This document shows positions 2,848-57,880 of a stretch of 64,000 nucleotides of DNA, in pieces. Position 1 is the first letter of the stretch; every line of letters begins with the position of its first letter. Source of the stretch: Hyphomicrobium methylovorum (GTDB taxonomy: Bacteria > Pseudomonadota > Alphaproteobacteria > Rhizobiales > Hyphomicrobiaceae); assembly GCF_013626205.1 (NCBI RefSeq), contig NZ_QHJE01000001.1, positions 1,550,001 to 1,614,000 on the forward strand, written 5' to 3'. The notes beneath the pieces were generated by a model, which was given only the letters and a program-made list of their open reading frames with translations, had not been told where the DNA came from and made no database searches. Made by a program: the position numbers and the translations under genes.

Positions 2848-3906
2848 TCAACGCGGCAGGATGAGCCACGTATCCAGATCGAGCACAACACCTTCAGCAT
2901 ACTCGCCGCCTTCCGTTTTCAACGGGAAGGCAGAACAATCCTGATTCTTGACGCCAACGAGACGGACGCGCAGCGCGCCAATGTCCCGGCGTTCCGGGAT
3001 CTCGGCTTTCTCGAGAACTTCGGACCACGCGTAGATCGTATCGCCAGCAAAGGTTGGGGCGACGTGGCGGCCGCCGTTGATGGCCGCCAGATGGAAGGCA
3101 TTGCCAAGGCCGTTGTACGACAGAGCGCGCACGAGCGAGATGACGACGCCGCCATAAACAATGCGCTTACCGAAGCGGCCCTTGGATTCGGTGTGCTGGT
3201 TGAAATGTACCTTCGCGGTATTCTGATAGAGGCGCGTCGCCGTCTGGTGCTCGGCTTCTTCCAGCGTCATGCCATCGACGTGATCGATTTTTTCGCCCAC
3301 ATCGTAATCACCCCAACGATGAGGAGAACCGGCAAGGGCCAGGTCGTATTTTGCAACGTCGAGCGCGGGCACGCCCAGCGCCAGATCTTTCGGATCAACG
3401 CGCTCTGGCAGCTTCGGCACGATTGCTTCGGGCGCCGGTGATCCCTTCGAGCGCTTCCTGACCATGACCCAGCGGCAATACTGCAGAACGATCTGACCGT
3501 CCTGATCGCGTCCGGTTGAGCGCACGTAAACGGTGCCCGTTTCGCCGTTTGAGTTTTCCTTGAGGCCGATGACTTCCGAAACCGACGTCAGCGTATCGCC
3601 GGGATAGACGGGGCGCAAAAATTTGCAGTCCGCGTATCCGAGGTTGGCGATAGCGTTGAGCGAGATGTCCGGCGTCGTTTTCCCGAAGACGACGTGAAAG
3701 GTCAGCAGGTCGTCAAGCGGCGAACGCGGATAGCCGATCGCCTTGGCGAACGTGTCGGCGGACTGAACGGCGAAGCGCGAGCCATAGAGCGCGGTATAGA
3801 GTGCCGCGTCGCCGACGGTGACTGTGCGCGGCGTCGCGTGGTTGATGATCTGGCCAAAGGAAAAGTCTTCGAAGAAATTGCCTGCGTTGGTTTTCGTGCC
3901 CGACAT
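2848..3906 (-). CDS. mch: Mesaconyl-CoA hydratase (MaoC family)
   Basis: Predicted to hydrate mesaconyl-C1-CoA to beta-methylmalyl-CoA in the ethylmalonyl-CoA pathway used for C1/C2 assimilation. The 352-residue length and double hot-dog architecture fit this family rather than the short R-specific enoyl hydratases. N-terminal domain: FFEDFSFGQIINHATPRTVTVGDAALYTALYGSRFAVQSADTFA region (key segment GDAALYTALYG), then YADCKFLRPVYPGDTL, a typical hot-dog hydratase motif; the second half repeats the fold with HFN and GKRIVYGGVVISLVRALS. The downstream partner in the pathway, a malyl-CoA lyase homologue, is encoded just upstream on the same strand (126 bases), which supports the assignment. Confidence 0.88.
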   Translation of the reverse strand: MSGTKTNAGNFFEDFSFGQIINHATPRTVTVGDAALYTALYGSRFAVQSADTFAKAIGYPRSPLDDLLTFHVVFGKTTPDISLNAIANLGYADCKFLRPVYPGDTLTSVSEVIGLKENSNGETGTVYVRSTGRDQDGQIVLQYCRWVMVRKRSKGSPAPEAIVPKLPERVDPKDLALGVPALDVAKYDLALAGSPHRWGDYDVGEKIDHVDGMTLEEAEHQTATRLYQNTAKVHFNQHTESKGRFGKRIVYGGVVISLVRALSYNGLGNAFHLAAINGGRHVAPTFAGDTIYAWSEVLEKAEIPERRDIGALRVRLVGVKNQDCSAFPLKTEGGEYAEGVVLDLDTWLILPR

Positions 3907-4032
3907 CGCCCTGCCTTCGCTATCGCTATTCGTTTCGGCCCTTTTTCGGGATGTGCGACGGCAATCGCAACCCTTTTCGGGCCAACTGGACGCGCTCTAG
4001 GGCCGCAGAAGCCGGTAACGATGTTTGCCAGG

Positions 4033-4938
4033 TCAGAACCAGGGCTCTTCGACCCTGGAGCGAGCGGCAATGGAGTCGGCAATCGCCGCGACGCGCTTCG
4101 CCATGACCAAATGCAAGCGCTCGACCATTCGACCTTCGACGGTGATCACCCCTTTACGAGCATTTTCCGGCTCCTCGAACGCGCGGATGATCTTCTTCGC
4201 CCAATCGATCTCTTCGTCGGTTGGGGAGAATACCTCGTTGCAGGGAATGACTTGTGACGGGTGGATCAGCGTCTTGCCGTCCATGCCAAGGGTGCGTCCG
4301 TGCTCGCATTCGGCGCGGAACCCCGAGTCGTCGCGGAAATCGTTGTAGACACCGTCAATCACATCCAGGCCATATGCGCGAGCGGCGACCAGTGTCATGG
4401 CCAGCCATGGCACAACGGCGAAGCGCCGGTTGCTGGAGCGCGCGCGGCTTTCCTTCAGCAGATCGTTGGTGCCGAGGACGAAGCAGGCGAGGCGGTTGTC
4501 CTGGTCAGGAGCGCAGGCCGCGATCTCACGCGCATTGATAATGCCCATCGGCGTTTCGATCATGGCCCAGAGGCGCGTGCGCGGATTTCCGTCCGCCGCC
4601 TTCACGACTTTGGCCGTTCCAAGAATATCGCCGGGCTGAGAGACCTTCGGGATGAGGATCGCGTCTGGCGCGACCGCAATCGCGGCATGGAGATCGACCA
4701 TGCCCCACGGCGTCTCGAGCGGATTGACCCGGATTACGACCTCGCGCGTGCCGAATCCGCCCTCGCGGACAATGGCTGCCGCCTGCTTTCGGGCGAGTTC
4801 CTTGTTCGCCGGGGCGACCGAGTCTTCAAGATCGATGATGATCGAATCGGTCGGCAGCGTTTTCGCTTTTTCGAGCGCGTGCTCCTTGTCTCCCGGCACG
4901 TAAAGGACACTTCGGCGGGGTTTCATCGGAAGCGTCAT
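4033..4938 (-). CDS. mcl2: HpcH/HpaI (CitE-like) CoA-ester lyase or malyl-CoA thioesterase
   Basis: TIM-barrel enzyme of the citrate-lyase beta-like family, 301 residues from ATG at 4936-4938 (GGAG eight bases upstream; GTG three codons earlier is a weaker choice). Motifs: RSVLYVPGDKEHALEKA at the N-terminus, IIDLEDSVAP (Mg-binding Asp/Glu region), AMIETPMGI (catalytic Glu), GTNDLLKE, and DGVYNDFRDDSGF with DGKTLIHPSQ near the C-terminus. The RSVLYVPG start and NDLLKE motif resemble the (S)-malyl-CoA thioesterase (Mcl2) branch more than the Mcl1 lyase branch, but I judge this from memory only. It pairs with mesaconyl-CoA hydratase, so a role in cleaving beta-methylmalyl-CoA or malyl-CoA is likely. 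Confidence 0.75.
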   Translation of the reverse strand: MTLPMKPRRSVLYVPGDKEHALEKAKTLPTDSIIIDLEDSVAPANKELARKQAAAIVREGGFGTREVVIRVNPLETPWGMVDLHAAIAVAPDAILIPKVSQPGDILGTAKVVKAADGNPRTRLWAMIETPMGIINAREIAACAPDQDNRLACFVLGTNDLLKESRARSSNRRFAVVPWLAMTLVAARAYGLDVIDGVYNDFRDDSGFRAECEHGRTLGMDGKTLIHPSQVIPCNEVFSPTDEEIDWAKKIIRAFEEPENARKGVITVEGRMVERLHLVMAKRVAAIADSIAARSRVEEPWF

Positions 4939-5103
4939 CGGTCTCACTCCGGCTAATCTTGCTGCGACGCAACATAGCGGAATCGCGCCGACTGCGAAAT
5001 ATCAACTTCGGCCGCGCGGCTTTGTGCGCAGGCGGCGCGTGCTAAGAGTTTAAACACGGGCAGTCCATAAGTTGCCGGCACCATTTGAAGACTGCAGAGG
5101 GCC

Positions 5104-5886
5104 ATGACCCGAATTCTCGTCATCTCATCTTACGTTGCATTCGACCCCATCGGGCTCGCGCCAGCAGTCGCGCCAATGCAGCGTGCTGGGTTCGACGTCG
5201 TGCAACTGCCGACGATCGTTCTGTCCAACCACCCGGCGCGCGAACATGTCGGCGGAACGCGGATTACGCCAACAATTCTCGGCGAAATGACCGATGCGAT
5301 CGAAGCGAACCGCTGGCTCGGCACGTTCGACGCGATCTATTCGGGCTATCTGCCATCGCTTGCGCACGTTCAGTGGGTTCGCGATCTCGTCACGCATCTG
5401 AGAGCGCTCAATCCGGCCATCACATATATCTGCGACCCGATTATCGGCGACGATCCGGAAGGCGTTTACATCGATGACGCTGCAGCGGAGGCTGTCCGCG
5501 ACGCGCTCGTTCCGATGGCCGATATTTTGACGCCCAACAGGTTTGAACTCGGTTGGCTGACGGGGCAAAACATTCTGTCGGTGCAAGATGCAATGCGCGC
5601 GGCCGCGACGCTCGGGCGCCCTACAATGGCCGCGACGTCGATACCGGTTGGTGTCGCCAAACTGGCCAACATCCTGCTGTCCGACGGCCGCGTGATTATG
5701 CGGGAGGTGACGAAACTCCCTGACGTGCCGCATGGAACGGGCGATCTCTTCGCCGGGCTTCTTATTTCGGATTTGCTGCAAGGACGCTCGGCAGAGGCTG
5801 CTCTGACTCATGCCGTCGCCAGTGTGGAAGCTGTTTTAACCGCAAGCCGCGGCCAGGACAGGCTGCTTCTGTCTGCGCTTCCTTAA
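5104..5886 (+). CDS. pdxY: Pyridoxal kinase
   Basis: Ribokinase-fold enzyme of 260 residues that phosphorylates pyridoxal to PLP in the salvage pathway. Family features: N-terminal ILVISSYVAFDPIGLAPAV, substrate segment LSNHPAREHVGG, CDPIIGDDPEGVYI, the TPNRFELGWLTG motif, and the C-terminal HGTGDLFAG with the catalytic Asp of the GTGD signature. GAGGG just before the ATG acts as ribosome binding site. It is transcribed divergently from the CitE-like gene and stands 78 bases before nhaA on the same strand. Another PLP-linked gene, yggS, lies at 56 kb. Confidence 0.88.
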   Translation: MTRILVISSYVAFDPIGLAPAVAPMQRAGFDVVQLPTIVLSNHPAREHVGGTRITPTILGEMTDAIEANRWLGTFDAIYSGYLPSLAHVQWVRDLVTHLRALNPAITYICDPIIGDDPEGVYIDDAAAEAVRDALVPMADILTPNRFELGWLTGQNILSVQDAMRAAATLGRPTMAATSIPVGVAKLANILLSDGRVIMREVTKLPDVPHGTGDLFAGLLISDLLQGRSAEAALTHAVASVEAVLTASRGQDRLLLSALP

Positions 5887-50963: not shown

Positions 50964-51533
50964 TCAGGCGGTCGTCGACAGGATTGCAAGGAGACGGGTT
51001 CTCAGCTCTTCGCCAACCGTCTGTGCAGCGCGGTTCTCCGCGTCCTGACGGGCTTCGACGTTGGCGAAAACCGACGACACACGGTCGAAGGACGCGCGGC
51101 CAAAGCTCTTGCCCGAGGCGACGACAGTTTTGTCTTCGATGCGGATCAGGTTGTACGCCGCTTCGATGTTGTAGATCTGGCCGCCAGCGTTGCCGTCTTT
51201 GCGAACCATCGTCGAGATGACGGTTTCACGGATTGCGATGTCGAGGCGGTATTTCGGCGGGGCTGGCGTTCCGCCGCCCGTCGTCTGGAAGATGAGTTCG
51301 TTGCGGATGCGCTGACCAACGCGGCCCGGGATCGGCGCGATATCCACCGTCGCCAGCTTCTCCTGAGCGCCGACGCCGCCAAGGCTGGCGGTGCCGTAAA
51401 GCGGACGGAACCCGGCGTCGCCGCATCCACCCAGGACGCAAAGCGCCGCGAGCCCCAAAGCCGAGAGAACCAGTCTCCGGCTCTGCGCCCTGCAGTTGCT
51501 TGTCCGTCCGTAAAGCCCCTCAGCCAACGACAT
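50964..51533 (-). CDS. lptE: LPS-assembly lipoprotein LptE
   Basis: Outer-membrane lipoprotein that plugs LptD for lipopolysaccharide insertion. 189 residues with a lipoprotein signal: basic start, [17 protein letters not shown] with the lipobox L-G-G-C (about residue 37). GFRPLYG follows, a family hallmark. Mature part rich in beta strands. The start overlaps the end of leuS by 14 bases, so it is translated after leuS. Confidence 0.9.
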
Positions 51534-54144
51534 TCACGATCCTTTGCGGAACGACGATGACTTTTTTCGGAGTGCGCCCATCAAGTGCACGCACGACCGA
51601 ATCAAGCTGCAATGCCGCCGCTTCTACTTCTTCGGATTTCGCTGTTCGCGAAACCACAAGTTCGTCCCGTCGCTTACCATTCACCTGTACGGCAATGGTC
51701 ACTTGATCGTCAACGAGTAGGTCCGGTTCAACGGCCGGCCAGGGTTCGTTCGCGAGCAGCGTGTTGTATCCCAGCCGCGCCCAGCATTCTTCCGCCAAAT
51801 GCGGCATCATCGGGCCGATGAGGATGGAAAGGTAGCCGCCCGCTTCCCGGGCCGCCCACTGCACGTCGGGACCGCTCTTCGTTAGGCCGGTCTGGAGAAC
51901 ATTGCAGAACTCATGGATGTGAGCGACCGCGACGTTGAACCTGAGGGCTTCGATGGCGCGTCCGACCTGATCAATGGCGCGGTGGCCCGCTTTGCGGATC
52001 GCCAACGCGTCGGGTCCGAACGTTGTCGGCTTGGCGGCCGTCTTGTCCGGTGCTGTTTCAGCAATGTCTTCGATGATGCGCCAGAGACGCTGAATGAAAC
52101 GGCCAGCGCCGGTCACGCCTGCTTCGGTCCAGATCACGTCGCGTTCCGGGGGGCTGTCGGACAGCATGAACCAGCGCGCGCAGTCGGCACCGAAGTGGGC
52201 GATGATGTCGTCCGGGTCGACGAGGTTCTTTTTCGATTTCGACATCTTCTCGATGCTGCCGATCGAAGCGGGACGGCCTGTTGACGTTTCGATCGCGCGC
52301 CGGTTTGCGCCTTCGCCTTCGAGCGTGACGTCGCCCGGCAGGAGCCAGAAGCCGTCTTCCGATTTGTACGTTTCGTGCGTCACCATTCCCTGCGTGAAGA
52401 GCGCGTTGAACGGCTCGCGCGTGTTCGTTGCAAACGCGAGATGGCCCGTGTCGGAGATCGCACGGGAGAAGAAGCGCGAATAGAGCAGATGCAGAATCGC
52501 GTGCTCGATGCCGCCGATGTATTGATCGACCGGCAGCCAGTATTTCGCCGCGTCCTGATCGACCGGCGTTGTCGCTTCGGGTGCGGTGAAGCGAACGTAA
52601 TACCAAGACGAGTCGACGAACGTATCCATCGTGTCGGTTTCGCGCGTCGCTTCCGCTCCGCACTTCGGGCAGGGCACATGCTTCCACGTCGGATGACGTT
52701 CGAGCGGGTTGCCGGGTTTGTCGAACGTTGCGTCCTCGGGAAGGACGACCGGCAAATCTTTCGCCGGAACCGGAACCACGCCGCACGTTTTGCAATGAAC
52801 GATCGGGATGGGGCAGCCCCAATAGCGCTGGCGCGAAATGCCCCAATCGCGCAGGCGGAAGTTGACCTTGCGGCTGCCCTGCGGACGGCCGGCAAGCTTT
52901 TGTTTTTCAAGACGCGATGCGGCTTCTTCGAACGCGGCCTTGGTGGTCAGCCCATCGAGGAAGCGCGAGTTGATCATCGTTCCTTCGTCCTCGTAGGCTT
53001 TGCCTTTGAGGTCGAATGTTTCCGCCTTTTCGCCGGGCGGTAGAACGACGGGGACGGTTGGCAGTTCGTAGCGAGTCGCGAAATCCATGTCGCGCTGATC
53101 GCCCGAGGGACAGCCAAAGATGGCGCCGGTGCCGTAATCCATCAGGATGAAGTTCGCGACGTAAACCGGAAGCTGCCAGCTCTTGTCGAATGGATGGACG
53201 GCGCGGATGCCGGTGTCGAAGCCGCGCTTTTCGGCGGCCTCGATGTCAGCGACTGACGTTCCCATGCGCCGGCATTCGTCGCAGAAGGCTGCCAGTTCGG
53301 GATTGTTTTCGGCGGCCTGCTTCGCGAGCGGATGATCGGCGGCGACTGCGAGGAATGACGCTCCGAAAAGTGTGTCGGGGCGTGTCGTGTAGACTTCGAG
53401 CTCGGTGAAGCCTTTCGGAGCGGCGTCCTTGTCGAGCGCCCAACGGACGGCGAGGCCTTCCGAGCGACCGATCCAGTTCGCCTGCATCAGGCGCACTTTT
53501 TCCGGCCAGTTGACGAGCGTGTCGAGGCCGGTGAGCAGTTCGTCGGCGTAGTCGGTGATTTTGAAGAACCACTGCGTCAGCTCGCGGCTTTCAACGAGCG
53601 CGCCGGACCGCCAGCCGCGGCCGTCGATCACCTGTTCGTTGGCGAGCACGGTGTGGTCGACCGGGTCCCAATTGACCTTCGAAGATTTCCGGTAGGCGAG
53701 CCCCTTGGCCAGCAAATCGAGAAACAGCTTCTGCTGATGCCGGTAGTATGTGGGCGAGCAGGTTGCGATCTCGCGCGACCAATCGAGCGACAGGCCCATC
53801 GACTTGAGCTGGCCGCGCATTGTGTCGATGTTGGCGTAGGTCCACTTGCCCGGATGGACCTTGCGTTCCATGGCGGCATTTTCCGCCGGCATGCCGAATG
53901 CGTCCCATCCCATCGGATGGAGAACGTTGAAGCCCTTAGCGCGCTTGTAGCGGGCAAAAACGTCGCCCATCGCATAGTTGCGCACATGCCCCATGTGGAT
54001 GCGTCCCGACGGATACGGGAACATCTCAAGGACGTAACACTTTGGCTTTGCAGGATCTTCTGTTGCGCGGAAGATCTGATTTTTTTCCCACACCTGTTGC
54101 CAATGGCGTTCACGGTCGGGGGCGTTGTAGCGTTCTATGGCCAT
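51520..54144 (-). CDS. leuS: Leucyl-tRNA synthetase
   Basis: 874 residues from [25 protein letters not shown]; an upstream frame extension of 23 residues is rejected. HIGH motif as [15 protein letters not shown], editing domain with [11 protein letters not shown], and KMSKSKKN catalytic loop. Zinc-binding CKTCG and CPKCG cysteines are visible in the ZN1-like region. C-terminal anticodon domain ends in [14 protein letters not shown]. First gene of leuS-lptE-holA. Confidence 0.97.
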
Positions 54145-54226
54145 GGGGCCCGTTCTTTCTGGGAAATTTGAATTGGTTAGCGCGTAAGAAGCCTGAAAGG
54201 TCGAGAGGGTCAAGTCGCCCGCGTTT

Positions 54227-54403
54227 TTGACACATGTCGTAAAAATCTGATTATTGCGACATGTTTTGAGAACATGTCGTGAGTGGCGACACGTTTCGGT
54301 TTATATGTCGTAGAAATTCATATTTTGCGACATATTCCTGCTATATGTCGCCGTTGCCGACATATCCGCGTGAGGTGTCGCCAAACCACGGATTTTGCGA
54401 CAG
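54227..54403. promoter_or_regulatory. Regular array of ten TGTCG/CGACA half-sites upstream of fic
   Basis: TGTCG starts at 54235, 54275, 54306, 54346 and 54376; CGACA starts at 54257, 54287, 54328, 54358 and 54398. Half-site distances alternate 22, 18, 12, 19, 22, 18, 12, 18, 22, so the pattern repeats with a period of 70-71 bases. The inner dyads extend well: ATATGTCG/CGACATAT around 54303-54335 and 54343-54365 and ACATGTCG/CGACATGT at 54232-54264. A consensus -35-like TTGACA at 54227-54232 overlaps the first half-site. The last half-site ends at the base before the fic ATG. This looks like a multi-site operator controlling fic, from two rounds of duplication of a 71-base unit. Confidence 0.75.
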
Positions 54404-55567
54404 ATGAAAGTCTTCGATCCTACAATTCCGCACAATAGCCTGCCCAAGCTGCCGCCTCCGGGTGATCTGGAGACGAAGGCCGTCTTGAAGAAGTGCGCTT
54501 CCGTCCATGCCGCGCTTGCCGCTCTGAAGGAGCGAGGCCGCCGCATTCCCGACCAGACCGTGCTCATCAATGCCATCCCCATCATGGAAGCCAAAGACAG
54601 CTCGGCGATTGAAAACATCGTCACGACGAGCGACGCGTTGTTTCGCGACCAGAGTCTTAGCGATGACAGCGACGCGGACCCTGCGACGAAGGAGGCATCG
54701 CGTTATCGATCAGCACTTCAACTCGGTTTTCATGCGCTCGCACATCGGCCGATCACGACTCGCACCGCCGTCGATATTTGCTCCGATCTCAAGGGCGTCG
54801 ATCTCAACGTGCGGAGTGTTCCAGGGACCAAGCTGAGAAATGCGAATACCGGCGACGTTATTTATACGCCGCCTGAAGGTGAAACGCTGCTGCGCGAGCT
54901 GCTGACAAATTGGGAGCGCTTCCTGAACGATGCGACTGAACTCGATCCTGTCGTTCGGATGGCCGTCGGACACTATCAGTTCGAAGCTATTCATCCGTTC
55001 ATTGACGGAAACGGCCGCACAGGCCGGGTCATCAACATTCTGTTTCTGATCGAACAGGGATTGCTCGAGCTCCCGACGCTCTATCTCAGCCGGTATATTT
55101 TGGCGAACCGCGCGGATTACTACCGCCTTCTTCTCGAGGTGACGACGAAGCAAGCGTGGGAGCCGTGGGTGCTCTTTATGCTCGACGGTATCGAGAATAC
55201 GGCGCGATGGACGGCTGCCAAGATCGGCGCGATTCACGATCTCATGGATGTGACGGTTTCATACGTTCGGGATGCAGCGCCGAAAACCTACACGCGCGAA
55301 CTTGTCGACGTGATTTTCATGCAGCCATACAGCCGCATTCAAAACGTTGTCGAGCGCGGGCTTGCGCATCGGGAAAAGGCGTCGAGAGACCTGAAGCAGC
55401 TCGTGTCGATCGGCGTGCTGCGTGAAATCAAAGTCGGGCGCGAAAAGCTCTTCCTCAATGTCAGATATGCGGCTCTTCTCGGCAATGATGCCAATACGTG
55501 GGAGCCGTTTCCGGAGATCAAGCAAACGCAGGTCGATCGCGCGCGCAACAAAAAGGGCCGCGCCTAA
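54404..55567 (+). CDS. Fic-family protein (class II, with C-terminal wHTH)
   Basis: Predicted AMP-transferase, 387 residues from ATG at 54404 (TTG three codons earlier is possible). N-terminal Fic_N-like helical region with the class II inhibitory motif SSAIEN (residues 66-71, S/T-xxx-E-N form), the full Fic active-site loop HPFIDGNGRTGR (197-208) with catalytic His197, and a C-terminal region (about residues 290-370) that looks like a winged helix DNA-binding domain (QNVVERGLAHREKASRDLKQLVSIGVLREIKVGREKLFLN). Regulators of this build can bind their own promoter; the array upstream fits. No antitoxin gene adjacent, so inhibition is expected to be intramolecular. Targets unknown. Confidence 0.88.
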   Translation: MKVFDPTIPHNSLPKLPPPGDLETKAVLKKCASVHAALAALKERGRRIPDQTVLINAIPIMEAKDSSAIENIVTTSDALFRDQSLSDDSDADPATKEASRYRSALQLGFHALAHRPITTRTAVDICSDLKGVDLNVRSVPGTKLRNANTGDVIYTPPEGETLLRELLTNWERFLNDATELDPVVRMAVGHYQFEAIHPFIDGNGRTGRVINILFLIEQGLLELPTLYLSRYILANRADYYRLLLEVTTKQAWEPWVLFMLDGIENTARWTAAKIGAIHDLMDVTVSYVRDAAPKTYTRELVDVIFMQPYSRIQNVVERGLAHREKASRDLKQLVSIGVLREIKVGREKLFLNVRYAALLGNDANTWEPFPEIKQTQVDRARNKKGRA

Positions 55568-55578
55568 GCGCGACCCTT
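55551..55578 (-). terminator. Intrinsic terminator of the GlcG-like gene, overlapping the fic stop
   Basis: Arms AAGGG-x-CGCGC (55553-55563) and GCGCG-x-CCCTT (55568-55578), loop around CCTAA; on the minus strand it is followed by TTTTTG. The fic stop TAA (55565-55567) is in the loop. It ends transcription of the minus gene at 55611. Confidence 0.7.
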
Positions 55579-55610
55579 CGTGAGATCTGATCGTAACGAC
55601 GAGCGTCCGA

Positions 55611-56015
55611 TCAACACGTATGCGCGCTCGCGCCTGCCTCGGCGACTTGCTGATCCTGCACGCCGCTTCCGCCCGATACGCCGATCGCGCCGATGACGAC
55701 ACCGTGCTGATCCTTGAGCGGAATGCCGCCAGCAAAGATCATTACGCGGTCATGGTTCGATACATGAATGCCATAGAACTGGTCGCCGGGCTGGCTGTTC
55801 TCAGCAAGCTCCTTGGTCGAAATGTTGAACGCGCGCGCGGTGAAAGCCTTGTTGATTGCGATGTTGATCGAACCGATCCAGGCCTTATCCATGCGAATGT
55901 GGGAAATGAGGTTCGCGCCCTCGTCGACAACGGCGATATTCATCGGCTGACCGATTTCGGCGGCCTTCTTTTCTGCGGCGTCAATGATGCGGCGGGCGTC
56001 AGCGAGTGTCAGCAT
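55611..56015 (-). CDS. GlcG/HbpS-family haem-degrading or haem-binding protein
   Basis: 134 residues of the GlcG/HbpS (DUF336) family: MLTLADARRIIDAAEKKAAEIGQPMNIAVVDEGANLISHIRMDKA (key IAVVDEGANLISHIRMD), ATARAFNIS-like TARAFNIST, FAGGIPLKDQHGVVIGAIGVSGGSG. No signal peptide is apparent, unlike secreted HbpS. A haem or corrinoid-related role is suggested by the family only. Convergent with fic and divergent from yggS. Confidence 0.85.
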   Translation of the reverse strand: MLTLADARRIIDAAEKKAAEIGQPMNIAVVDEGANLISHIRMDKAWIGSINIAINKAFTARAFNISTKELAENSQPGDQFYGIHVSNHDRVMIFAGGIPLKDQHGVVIGAIGVSGGSGVQDQQVAEAGASAHTC

Positions 56016-56143
56016 GAATGTGTCCTCTGTATTCGAGATGCAGCATGTAGGTGCCCTATAGGCCTTATAAATTGCGACACTTGTTCGCTCGGGCCTGATA
56101 CGAAGGGCGTATAAAGACGTCAGGAGTAGATTTAGGAGATACC

Positions 56144-56824
56144 GTGACCGGCGACGAATACCAGGAAACAGCGCCCGAGAGGTTAAAGCGCATTAAAGTC
56201 GAGATTGCGGACGCGGCTAAAGGCGCTGGGCGGAGCGCTTCGGATGTCACGTTGATTGCTGTTTCCAAGACGTTCGATGCGGATGCTGTCGAACCCGTTC
56301 TCGCAGCGGGACATCGCCAGTTCGGCGAAAACCGAGTTCAGGAAGCCGAACGTAAATGGCCCGGTCTTCGTTCCAAATTTCCCGACGTCACACTTCATCT
56401 CATCGGGCCGCTGCAATCGAACAAGGTGAAAGATGCGGTGGCGCTGTTCGATGCCATCCATACGATCGATCGTGAAAAGATTGCGCGTGCGGTTGCCGCT
56501 GAAGTTGCAAGCCAGCAGCGCCGGCTCGACCTATTCGTTCAAGTGAATACGGGCGAGGAGGCACAAAAGGCCGGTGTGTTTCCGCGCGAAGCGAAGGCGT
56601 TCGTCGATTTTTGCCGCAACGATCTGCAGCTCACGATTCGCGGATTGATGTGTATTCCGCCGGTCGAGGAAGAGCCTTCCGTCCATTTTGCCTTTTTGGC
56701 GAAGCTGGCGCGTGAAGCCGGACTTGACGCGTTGAGCATGGGCATGAGCGGCGATTTTGAAGCTGCCATCGCGCTCGGTGCGACGCATGTTCGCGTCGGC
56801 TCAGCGATTTTCGGTCACCGTTGA
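56144..56824 (+). CDS. yggS: PLP homeostasis protein YggS (PLPBP)
   Basis: Single-domain fold-type III alanine racemase-like barrel that binds PLP and buffers its level. 226 residues from GTG with AGGAGA six bases before. LIAVSKTFDADAV holds the PLP-binding Lys, FGENRVQEAERKWPGL, HLIGPLQSNKVKDAVALFDAIHTIDREKIA and GLMCIPPVEEEP, SMGMSGDFEAAIALGATHVRVGSAIFG all match the family. Complements the pdxY gene at 5.1 kb in vitamin B6 biology. Confidence 0.94.
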   Translation: MTGDEYQETAPERLKRIKVEIADAAKGAGRSASDVTLIAVSKTFDADAVEPVLAAGHRQFGENRVQEAERKWPGLRSKFPDVTLHLIGPLQSNKVKDAVALFDAIHTIDREKIARAVAAEVASQQRRLDLFVQVNTGEEAQKAGVFPREAKAFVDFCRNDLQLTIRGLMCIPPVEEEPSVHFAFLAKLAREAGLDALSMGMSGDFEAAIALGATHVRVGSAIFGHR

Positions 56825-56935
56825 GGCGTTTCCCACCACAAAATTTCTCTTCGCCACTTGGAGCCTGATTGGCGGTGTTAGCCTTCCACGCTGATTCGCC
56901 ATGAAGCGTCGTAAGCGCACGACAGGGGTTCCGAT

Positions 56936-57880
56936 ATGACCGCGTCTTCGCAGAAGAAAGATCCGTTGGTGGCAGAAGCGAACGCCGCAGCTGCCGAAGC
57001 AGCGCGCGATGCACGTGCCGAAGTGCTGGAGAAAGCGAAGACAGAGAAGGCGGAGACGACAGCGGCGAAGACTGCTGTTTCGAAGCTCGAGAAGTCAGCG
57101 GGGGACGCTTCAAAGGCCGCGCGCACCAAGTGGCATGATTTCGATATTCAAGTCTGGCTCACGAATTTCAATTCGATCGAATTCGGTTTCTGGAAGCGCG
57201 ATCGCAATCGCGGTAAGTCGCGGCAGTTCACCAGCGATATGGATATCTTCGCGGAGGTGGTGGAGAACGGGCAGCGCACCGGCGTGCTCGGATATCGCAA
57301 AGAGCTTTGGAAAGATGCGGAGGGCATGAAGAAGCGCCTCGTGCTCAAGCTCTTTTCCGAAACGCTCAATTGGCGCGCGAGTATGGACTTGATGCTGGGC
57401 CGCTCTATCCAGCAGACGCTTGGTGCGCGCGGCTTGCCTGTCACGGCCTATTCCGTGAATACCAGTCCGGATGATTACATCGTCTATCTCGAACGCTCCG
57501 CGAACAAGTGGCCGTTCATGCCGGAAAACTTTTCGTTCTTTCTGATGGAGCGCGGTCAGCCGAAGTTCTATCGCTTGCGGCGTGACTTCATAAATATCGG
57601 CGGTGACTACACGCTGATCGACGCCCGGGGCGAACACGTTGGCCATCTTGATGGCGCGATCCTAACGATTGGCGGGAAGTGGCGCTGCAAGGTGCGCGGC
57701 GATCATGCCGATCCGCGGCTCATCATGGTGCTGAAGTTGTTCGTCGGGATGATCGCGTTCAATCGCCAGGCGCGGAAGCATGTGAAGCAGATGGCGCGAG
57801 ATATCCGCGACGGTGTCGTGACGCCCGATATCGAGCGGCAGGAAGCGGATCTCTATCTCAATCCGCGCCGCGTGCGCTGA
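56936..57880 (+). CDS. Hypothetical protein with possible tubby-C/LURP-like domain
   Basis: 314 residues, not assigned. N-terminal 60 residues are Ala/Glu/Lys-rich and probably a coiled or disordered tail. The middle contains charged strands without known motifs. The region GGDYTLIDARGEHVGHLDGAILTIGGKWRCKV (about residues 222-253; key LIDARGEHVGHLDGAI) resembles the strand pattern of LURP-one/tubby C-terminal proteins, which bind lipids, but this is weak. A hydrophobic helix LIMVLKLFVGMIAF near residue 262-275, the kind of end helix that occupies the tubby-like barrel, is seen. ATG lies 111 bases after yggS. Confidence 0.55.
   Translation: MTASSQKKDPLVAEANAAAAEAARDARAEVLEKAKTEKAETTAAKTAVSKLEKSAGDASKAARTKWHDFDIQVWLTNFNSIEFGFWKRDRNRGKSRQFTSDMDIFAEVVENGQRTGVLGYRKELWKDAEGMKKRLVLKLFSETLNWRASMDLMLGRSIQQTLGARGLPVTAYSVNTSPDDYIVYLERSANKWPFMPENFSFFLMERGQPKFYRLRRDFINIGGDYTLIDARGEHVGHLDGAILTIGGKWRCKVRGDHADPRLIMVLKLFVGMIAFNRQARKHVKQMARDIRDGVVTPDIERQEADLYLNPRRVR

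Follow-up and report, generated by a model that had tools for sequence, protein, structure and literature searches.

The leuS-fic interval and the Fic protein

What fills the short interval between leuS and fic in Hyphomicrobium methylovorum, and which protein would read it? In the 64,000-nucleotide stretch analyzed here (hereafter the window), ten TGTCG/CGACA half-sites lie between these two divergent genes, leuS on the reverse strand (51520-54144, named from sequence, with the ATG at 54144 chosen as its start) and fic on the forward strand (54404-55567). A sequence-only reading of the window had proposed that they form an operator array bound by the winged helix-turn-helix (wHTH) of the Fic protein itself. 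The half-site cores start at 54235, 54257, 54275, 54287, 54306, 54328, 54346, 54358, 54376 and 54398, in steps of 22, 18, 12, 19, 22, 18, 12, 18 and 22, exactly as that reading had given them. The core is TGTCG and the extended form is mostly ACATGTCGN or ATATGTCGN. The half-sites pair into palindromes in the order wide, narrow, wide, narrow, wide, covering 27 bp over the cores when wide and 17 bp when narrow, with inner spacers that alternate between 17 and 7 bp. Based on the spacing count and the lattice fit, the first wide palindrome (cores 54235-54261) consists of half-site 1 (ACATGTCGT, 54232-54240) and half-site 2 (54256-54264), the first narrow one (cores 54275-54291) of half-sites 3 (54272-54280) and 4 (54286-54294), the second wide one (cores 54306-54332) of half-sites 5 (54303-54311) and 6 (54327-54335), the second narrow one (cores 54346-54362) of half-sites 7 (54343-54351) and 8 (54357-54365), and the third wide one (cores 54376-54402) of half-sites 9 (54373-54381) and 10 (54397-54405), the first member of each pair being on the forward strand and the second on the reverse strand. 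The 9-mer of half-site 10 overlaps the ATG of fic and its core ends one base before this codon (54404), so the last half-site does touch the start codon as had been noted. The next densest TGTCG/CGACA cluster of equal length holds four words, out of 206 words in the 64-kb window, and a lattice fit blind to the half-site letters scored 96.7 on the array vs at most 31.2 on 20 dinucleotide shuffles.

A promoter-like element, TTGACA-N16-GATTAT (54227-54254, forward strand), was recognized by consensus match. Ten of its 12 promoter letters agree, and two such matches occur in the stretch vs a shuffle mean of 0.5. The TTGACA (54227-54232), with GATTAT 16 bases downstream, overlaps the first wide palindrome, which agrees with the earlier description of a -35-like hexamer overlapping the first half-site. 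Two other claims fared less well. Half-sites of the same type had been placed on similar sides of the helix, and the steps of 30/31 and 40/41 bases behind this claim are present, but at 10.5 bp per turn they amount to 2.9 and 3.8-3.9 turns, and the 70/71-base repeat to about 6.7, so that the half-sites drift round the helix and the facing is only approximate. A 71-base unit had also been said to align with itself outside the half-sites, pointing to tandem duplication; this was not borne out, as 29 of 36 letters match inside the half-sites and 13 of 34 outside (8 of 15 outside in a 30-base self-comparison at offset 70). Since wide palindromes have an A/T-rich heart throughout the family, recent duplication is not needed to explain the self-match. 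As to a regulon in the host genome, this candidate was rejected because the exact four-site unit was found in this genome inside the array only; six exact wide palindromes are present, two in the array and four elsewhere (one for the reversed-pattern control), and a divergent half-site pair at 2.50 Mb lies inside a 394-aa ORF.

The gene behind the array encodes a 387-aa protein with Fic_N, Fic and C-terminal wHTH domains (Pfam PF13784, PF02661 and PF21248) and the Fic motif HPFIDGNGRTGR. The product passes NCBIfam model NF046030 narrowly (553.9 bits for a cut-off of 550) and scores 373 bits with the PADLOC SoFic model, while its AlphaFold model (mean pLDDT 86) matches Shewanella oneidensis SoFic (3zcn) with a Z of 46.3 over 365 residues. 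SoFic is a class II Fic protein according to PMC3667792. By these matches, the window gene is a Sofic (SoFic) gene of a known phage-defence family, and its product is predicted to be a class II Fic AMPylase whose C-terminal domain is a winged helix. The wHTH part (SoFic-like_C, residues 280-355, coded by 55241-55468 on the forward strand) is a winged helix in the AF2 model, with helices 298-304, 312-317 and 323-335 and a two-stranded wing, which together with the PF21248 domain supports the wHTH-like C-terminus reported earlier. Given its place in the wHTH, helix 323-335 (55370-55408, forward strand) would be the recognition helix. The fic stop and the 3' end of a glcG-like gene (55611-56015, reverse strand, name assigned here) lie just 43 bases apart, and a 47-aa antitoxin gene would therefore find no room 3' of fic unless it overlapped.

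The glcG-like gene is the downstream border of a cassette, as fic is either present or absent, often between leuS and the glcG-like gene, and was found in 39 of 103 family genomes (E 1e-100). None of the six congeners without a Sofic match carried an array at the leuS/glcG-like locus. Relatives of fic also occur in 261 plasmid records, and arrays accompanied fic on all seven plasmids examined (L241-L247). On three of these seven (L242, L243 and L246), a gene annotated as a recombinase family protein lies directly 3' of fic.

Family-wide conservation of the lattice

Relatives were collected from genome contigs (13 loci) and from whole genomes, giving 107 distinct proteins after orientation. Each upstream region of at least 150 nt was compared with 20 shuffles of itself by a lattice fit over 300 bp that allows only steps of 11-13, 21-23 and 17-20, on which the step tally below is conditional. 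Fifty relatives had 52% identity or more, a length of 330 aa or more and sufficient upstream DNA. In 49 of them the array exceeded every shuffle by at least 8, a count that leaves out shortened proteins and those with less than 150 nt upstream, such as L091 and L093 (no array with the chosen start) and L092 (which has one). The single exception, L014, scored 30.3 vs 27.8 for its shuffles and has at best a weak array. A conserved half-site lattice thus precedes sofic genes across many proteobacterial lineages. The spacing upstream of orthologues, proposed earlier as a check, is kept while the letters vary with the recognition helix, so that the earlier reading withstood its own refuting test on this point.

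The geometry was tallied in 79 arrays, that is, 48 of the 49 plus 31 later ones; L123, which was fitted off register, was omitted here as well as from the covariation, word count and tree comparisons. Convergent (F to R) steps were 22 (193) or 12 (151) in 344 of 353 instances and divergent (R to F) steps were 18 (140) or 19 (144) in 284 of 293. Wide and narrow palindromes alternated in 260 of 274 neighbours, an order that the fit does not impose. A lattice-free count of TGTCG/CGACA at 47 TCG-type loci gave the same main peaks as the fit, with convergent steps at 22 (67) and 12 (42) of 129 and divergent steps at 18 (60) and 19 (19) of 111, besides minor peaks at 3 and 5 (12 each) that come from overlapping words. 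Array size ranged from 6 to 17 half-sites, the commonest sizes being 6, 10 and 14 (21, 17 and 12 arrays of 79, respectively), which suggests gain and loss in such units. In 29 of the 79 arrays the end falls at -4 or -6 relative to the fic start; all 72 arrays listed end at most 95 bp from it within the 300 bp scanned upstream. The A+T content of the palindrome heart is 72% in wide and 48% in narrow palindromes, and the conserved letters reach outward past the palindrome stems.

Half-site letters track one residue of the winged helix

In most lineages the half-sites open with AYATG, followed by TCG, TTC, GG, GGGT, GCAC or GCGC. To relate these letters to the protein, half-site profiles from 48 loci were compared with the alignment columns, correcting for overall identity. 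Column 324, a glutamate in the window protein (codon 55373-55375, forward strand), ranked first of 308 columns with a partial r of 0.66, which none of 500 permutations reached (best 0.561). The top five columns (324, 312, 327, 347 and 322) are all within the wHTH. A rule was then fixed before its test: Q or E goes with TGTCG, V, A or T with TGTTC, H with TGG, K with TGGGTA and N with TGCAC. For the test, 45 further loci were taken, among them the nearest 9 of 80 viral relatives and 7 of the 261 plasmid records; removal of two duplicates, one truncated locus and nine below 47.5% identity left 33. The rule was right in all 31 new loci that it covers (18 TCG and 13 other classes), some of them close to training loci, the predicted class being the best and above 40 shuffles each time; the weakest calls were L155 (18 vs 11) and L140, put in the TTC class by 57 vs 51 only. 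The other two loci fall outside the rule, L137 (D) having a different array by a free fit without shuffles and L138 (I) having no array. The half-sites of L137 are unusual and TATGCGTG-like, and D could be a further letter of the code. The consensus of an array departs from the literal core of the rule in four of 78 arrays (L247, L236, L028 and L140).

The letters of the half-sites therefore go with a single residue, which lies where the putative recognition helix begins. On a quick tree of the Fic part without the wHTH, the half-site class changes at least 15 times, and the near-sister proteins L112 (V, TTC array) and L139 (H, GG array) differ in both traits. An independent-pair test was underpowered, having few pairs: one on well-supported branches, which agreed with the expectation in almost all of 200 draws, and six on all branches. 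leuS adjoins fic in nine of ten relatives examined; these nine have six different residues at 324 (E, V, H, Q, T and N) and their arrays follow, the array of L028 (T) only loosely. Distant relatives of 36-48% identity (clade II, 43 loci) had 26 upstream regions above all their shuffles and 17 not, with a mostly wide-only lattice of a period near 41. After the fact, position 324 was also found to match there, as among arrays above their shuffles Q goes with GTTAA in nine of ten (exception L105), and L, I or M go with GTATA or its complement in 12 of 13 (exception L111). With eight residues seen in the closer clade, the code offers a naturally occurring set of proteins matched to their operators, in which the co-evolution of repressors and operator arrays can be followed.

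Some arrays are of mixed composition. At least six of ten H-type loci (L020, L056, L139, L143, L147 and L148) keep TGTCG half-sites at the distal end of the array, as though a former or additional specificity had been retained, and another, L023, has its TGTCG half-sites near the gene instead. In L015, L247 and L366 (Cedecea, Pantoea and Escherichia coli, respectively), palindromes combine a TCGA with a TTTA half-site, the two alternating fairly regularly.

The array as the probable operator of the Sofic gene

Because the letters covary with residue 324, the pre-stated rule was right in 31 of 31 loci and the same position matters in clade II, the Fic protein is predicted to read its own operator. 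We consider it highly probable that the window array serves as operator of the Sofic gene, with the C-terminal winged helix of Sofic as its reader, as the sequence-only reading had proposed. Binding of Sofic to the array is close to certain judging from these sequence comparisons, and Sofic is likely to silence the gene that encodes it. Repression, like cooperativity, is inferred by analogy with CccR, from the leaky toxicity of EcSofic and from the position of the array over the promoter-like element and the start codon.

Autorepressing Fic-HTH proteins are already known. In Yersinia pseudotuberculosis, the Fic toxin CccR acts as a dimer whose HTH recognizes inverted repeats at the promoter of the CccR gene, which is thereby repressed 3.3-fold; CccR shares 29% identity with SO_4266 at 45% coverage (PMC9755527). 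Like CccR, Sofic is by sequence a class II Fic protein with a C-terminal HTH and inverted repeats at its own promoter, and recognition of that promoter by the HTH is indicated by the covariation and the pre-stated rule. The operators differ: CccR has one 46-nt palindrome with 10-bp arms and a 26-bp spacer (PMC9755527), whereas Sofic genes have a lattice of 6-17 half-sites, and the window has ten with 17- and 7-bp spacers. EcSofic is a dimer that was hard to clone, its leaky expression being toxic (PMC12249575). EcSofic-AS1 of E. coli H397 (PDB 9vjc) is of the same family as the window Sofic. The E. coli L366 product is identical to the 9vjc chain but for the catalytic histidine. In the 300 bp before the L366 gene there are at least 17 half-sites, the last of them at -6 (score 123.5 vs at most 28.2). 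In PMC12249575, the words upstream, transcription and winged are absent, and the passages on promoters and operators concern T7/lac constructs.

Multi-site operators are common. In autoregulated type II toxin-antitoxin operators, cooperative occupancy of several sites makes expression tight and self-limiting, and the DNA-binding domain is brought by the antitoxin. In Sofic, on the other hand, toxin and reader would be one chain. Among open-licence journal papers in PMC, we found no described system with the exact layout of the window array, in agreement with the earlier reading, and as far as these papers show, the family-wide lattice, the one-residue code and the Fic-free copies described below are new. 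Four newer SoFic PDB entries (9tb0, 9tc4, 9tch and 9tcl), matched by sequence search and absent from the VIA-align list, may already bear on this novelty.

In the mechanism that we propose, Sofic dimers would sit across the convergent pairs, whose wide (22) and narrow (12) steps are one helical turn apart. The rigidity of these steps would reflect one dimer per pair with flexible wHTHs, and the looser 18/19 step would reflect contacts between neighbouring dimers. The resulting chain of dimers may cover promoter, leader and start codon and hold fic transcription at a very low level as long as Sofic is not consumed, modified or released, for example on phage infection. A toxin that is lethal when leaky would need a steep, self-limiting switch, and many weak cooperative sites could supply one. 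How Sofic is silenced and triggered is called open in the discussion of PMC12249575; the array gives this widespread single-gene defence toxin a concrete conserved DNA target, with its geometry and a one-residue code.

The array could instead serve mainly to hold Sofic as a harmless DNA-bound toxin, DNA acting as antitoxin or sink and promoter control being a side effect. Such a role would suit arrays of up to 14-17 half-sites, beyond the apparent need of one promoter, and arrays without an adjoining fic do exist. It would also suit two findings on related proteins. In Coxiella burnetii CbFic2, DNA binding alters dimerisation, and activity switches on this DNA-induced dimerisation (PMC10628234; the DNA in that work was random, and the available text names no operator). 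The CTD of EcSofic changes position with ATP, and toxicity depends on the contact between the CTD and the AMPylase domain (PMC12249575). CbFic2 is, like Sofic, a Fic protein with a wHTH, but a distant one (8cil, Z 23.0, 318 aligned residues, rmsd 9.6, 17% identity). Against a sink, the arrays keep to the gene, at or close to its start, and one chromosomal array has few sites relative to the proteome of the cell. We regard this role as unlikely. Binding by another host regulator is a far weaker contender. Viral contigs carry the four-site unit without a clear Sofic-type wHTH in the stretches examined, as such a regulator would allow, but the residue that the letters track belongs to the Fic protein itself, whose wHTH holds all of the top five columns, and the arrays travel with fic on plasmids and in several proteobacterial lineages.

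RNA hairpins acting as an attenuator or in translational control of the fic leader are hardly credible: each palindrome could form a 5-bp stem and there is one terminator-like match (shuffle mean 0.4), but no Rfam match was obtained in 53000-57000, the stem letters covary with the DNA-reading helix, conservation extends outward past the stems, and the divergent steps between stems are nearly fixed at 18 or 19. Recombination, insertion or replication sites of a mobile fic cassette, which its present/absent state between leuS and glcG, its frequency on plasmids and the recombinase-family gene directly 3' in three of them might suggest, are just as hard to credit, since the lattice, scanned on the 5' side of fic, in many cases reaches the start codon and has letters that are matched to the wHTH.

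Copies of the array without a fic gene

The 57-bp four-site unit TGTCG-N17-CGACA-N13-TGTCG-N7-CGACA matched 89 viral contig stretches. A Fic gene was present in three of the 85 examined (L257-L341; two Sofic and one other Fic) and absent from 82, these stretches being parts of contigs that may hold a Fic gene elsewhere. The same geometry with other half-sites gave two viral matches and the same half-sites with altered spacing gave none, while the TTC-type four-site pattern gave one, the clade II pattern five, and the 18-to-19 spacing variant, which is also seen in Sofic arrays, seven. The 82 Fic-free stretches reduce to 47 non-redundant sites. At the positions that were not part of the search, viral units resemble those of Sofic genes (r 0.83, permuted maximum 0.40). 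No clear Sofic-type wHTH was found in the viral stretches except in L280 and L284 (L295 and L331 reached an E of 0.088), and no neighbour family was shared near more than eight of the 47 non-redundant sites. The units sit both between genes and inside ORFs. The annotated phage collection held no relatives for the two viral stretches tried, and Rfam gave no match other than tRNA on eight stretches. The exact four-site unit was found in none of 228 other genomes, a sample of only some hundreds.

Orphan arrays were also seen in E. coli, where 100 of 5426 genomes have a six-site array. In the two strains read (L364:4000-4110 and L365), it is flanked by convergent genes next to fliJ and has no fic in its vicinity (scores of 50.7 vs 33.6 and 48.0 vs 29.0), and in two other strains the DNA beside fliJ is different and carries no array. 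Of 380 matching E. coli genomes, 278 had fic at 80% coverage and the other 102 matched partially; from these totals, a genome seems almost always to have either the orphan array or fic.

Fic-free copies could be decoys, triggers or sensors, or sites of an unrelated regulator, and those on viral contigs raise the question of operator decoys. At its boldest, this idea would make the array one half of an immune switch, with Sofic held inactive or de-AMPylating on the lattice and released at infection, and with the phage units and the E. coli orphan array as decoys or triggers. We think this improbable. If true, counter-defence could be exerted by operator DNA alone, phages and hosts without sofic being able to manipulate the toxin.

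Two viral stretches deserve mention. In L332 (290-370), a different Fic gene has its own upstream repeats (ATAGTC ... GACTATA), and since these adjoin its start, the four-site unit of this stretch is probably not the operator of that Fic; Fic genes may commonly have repeats that resemble operators. In L286, a gene with Schlafen AlbA_2 and HATPase_c_4 domains (3866-5431) carries at its 5' end a unit of the Sofic type, preceded by TTGACA.
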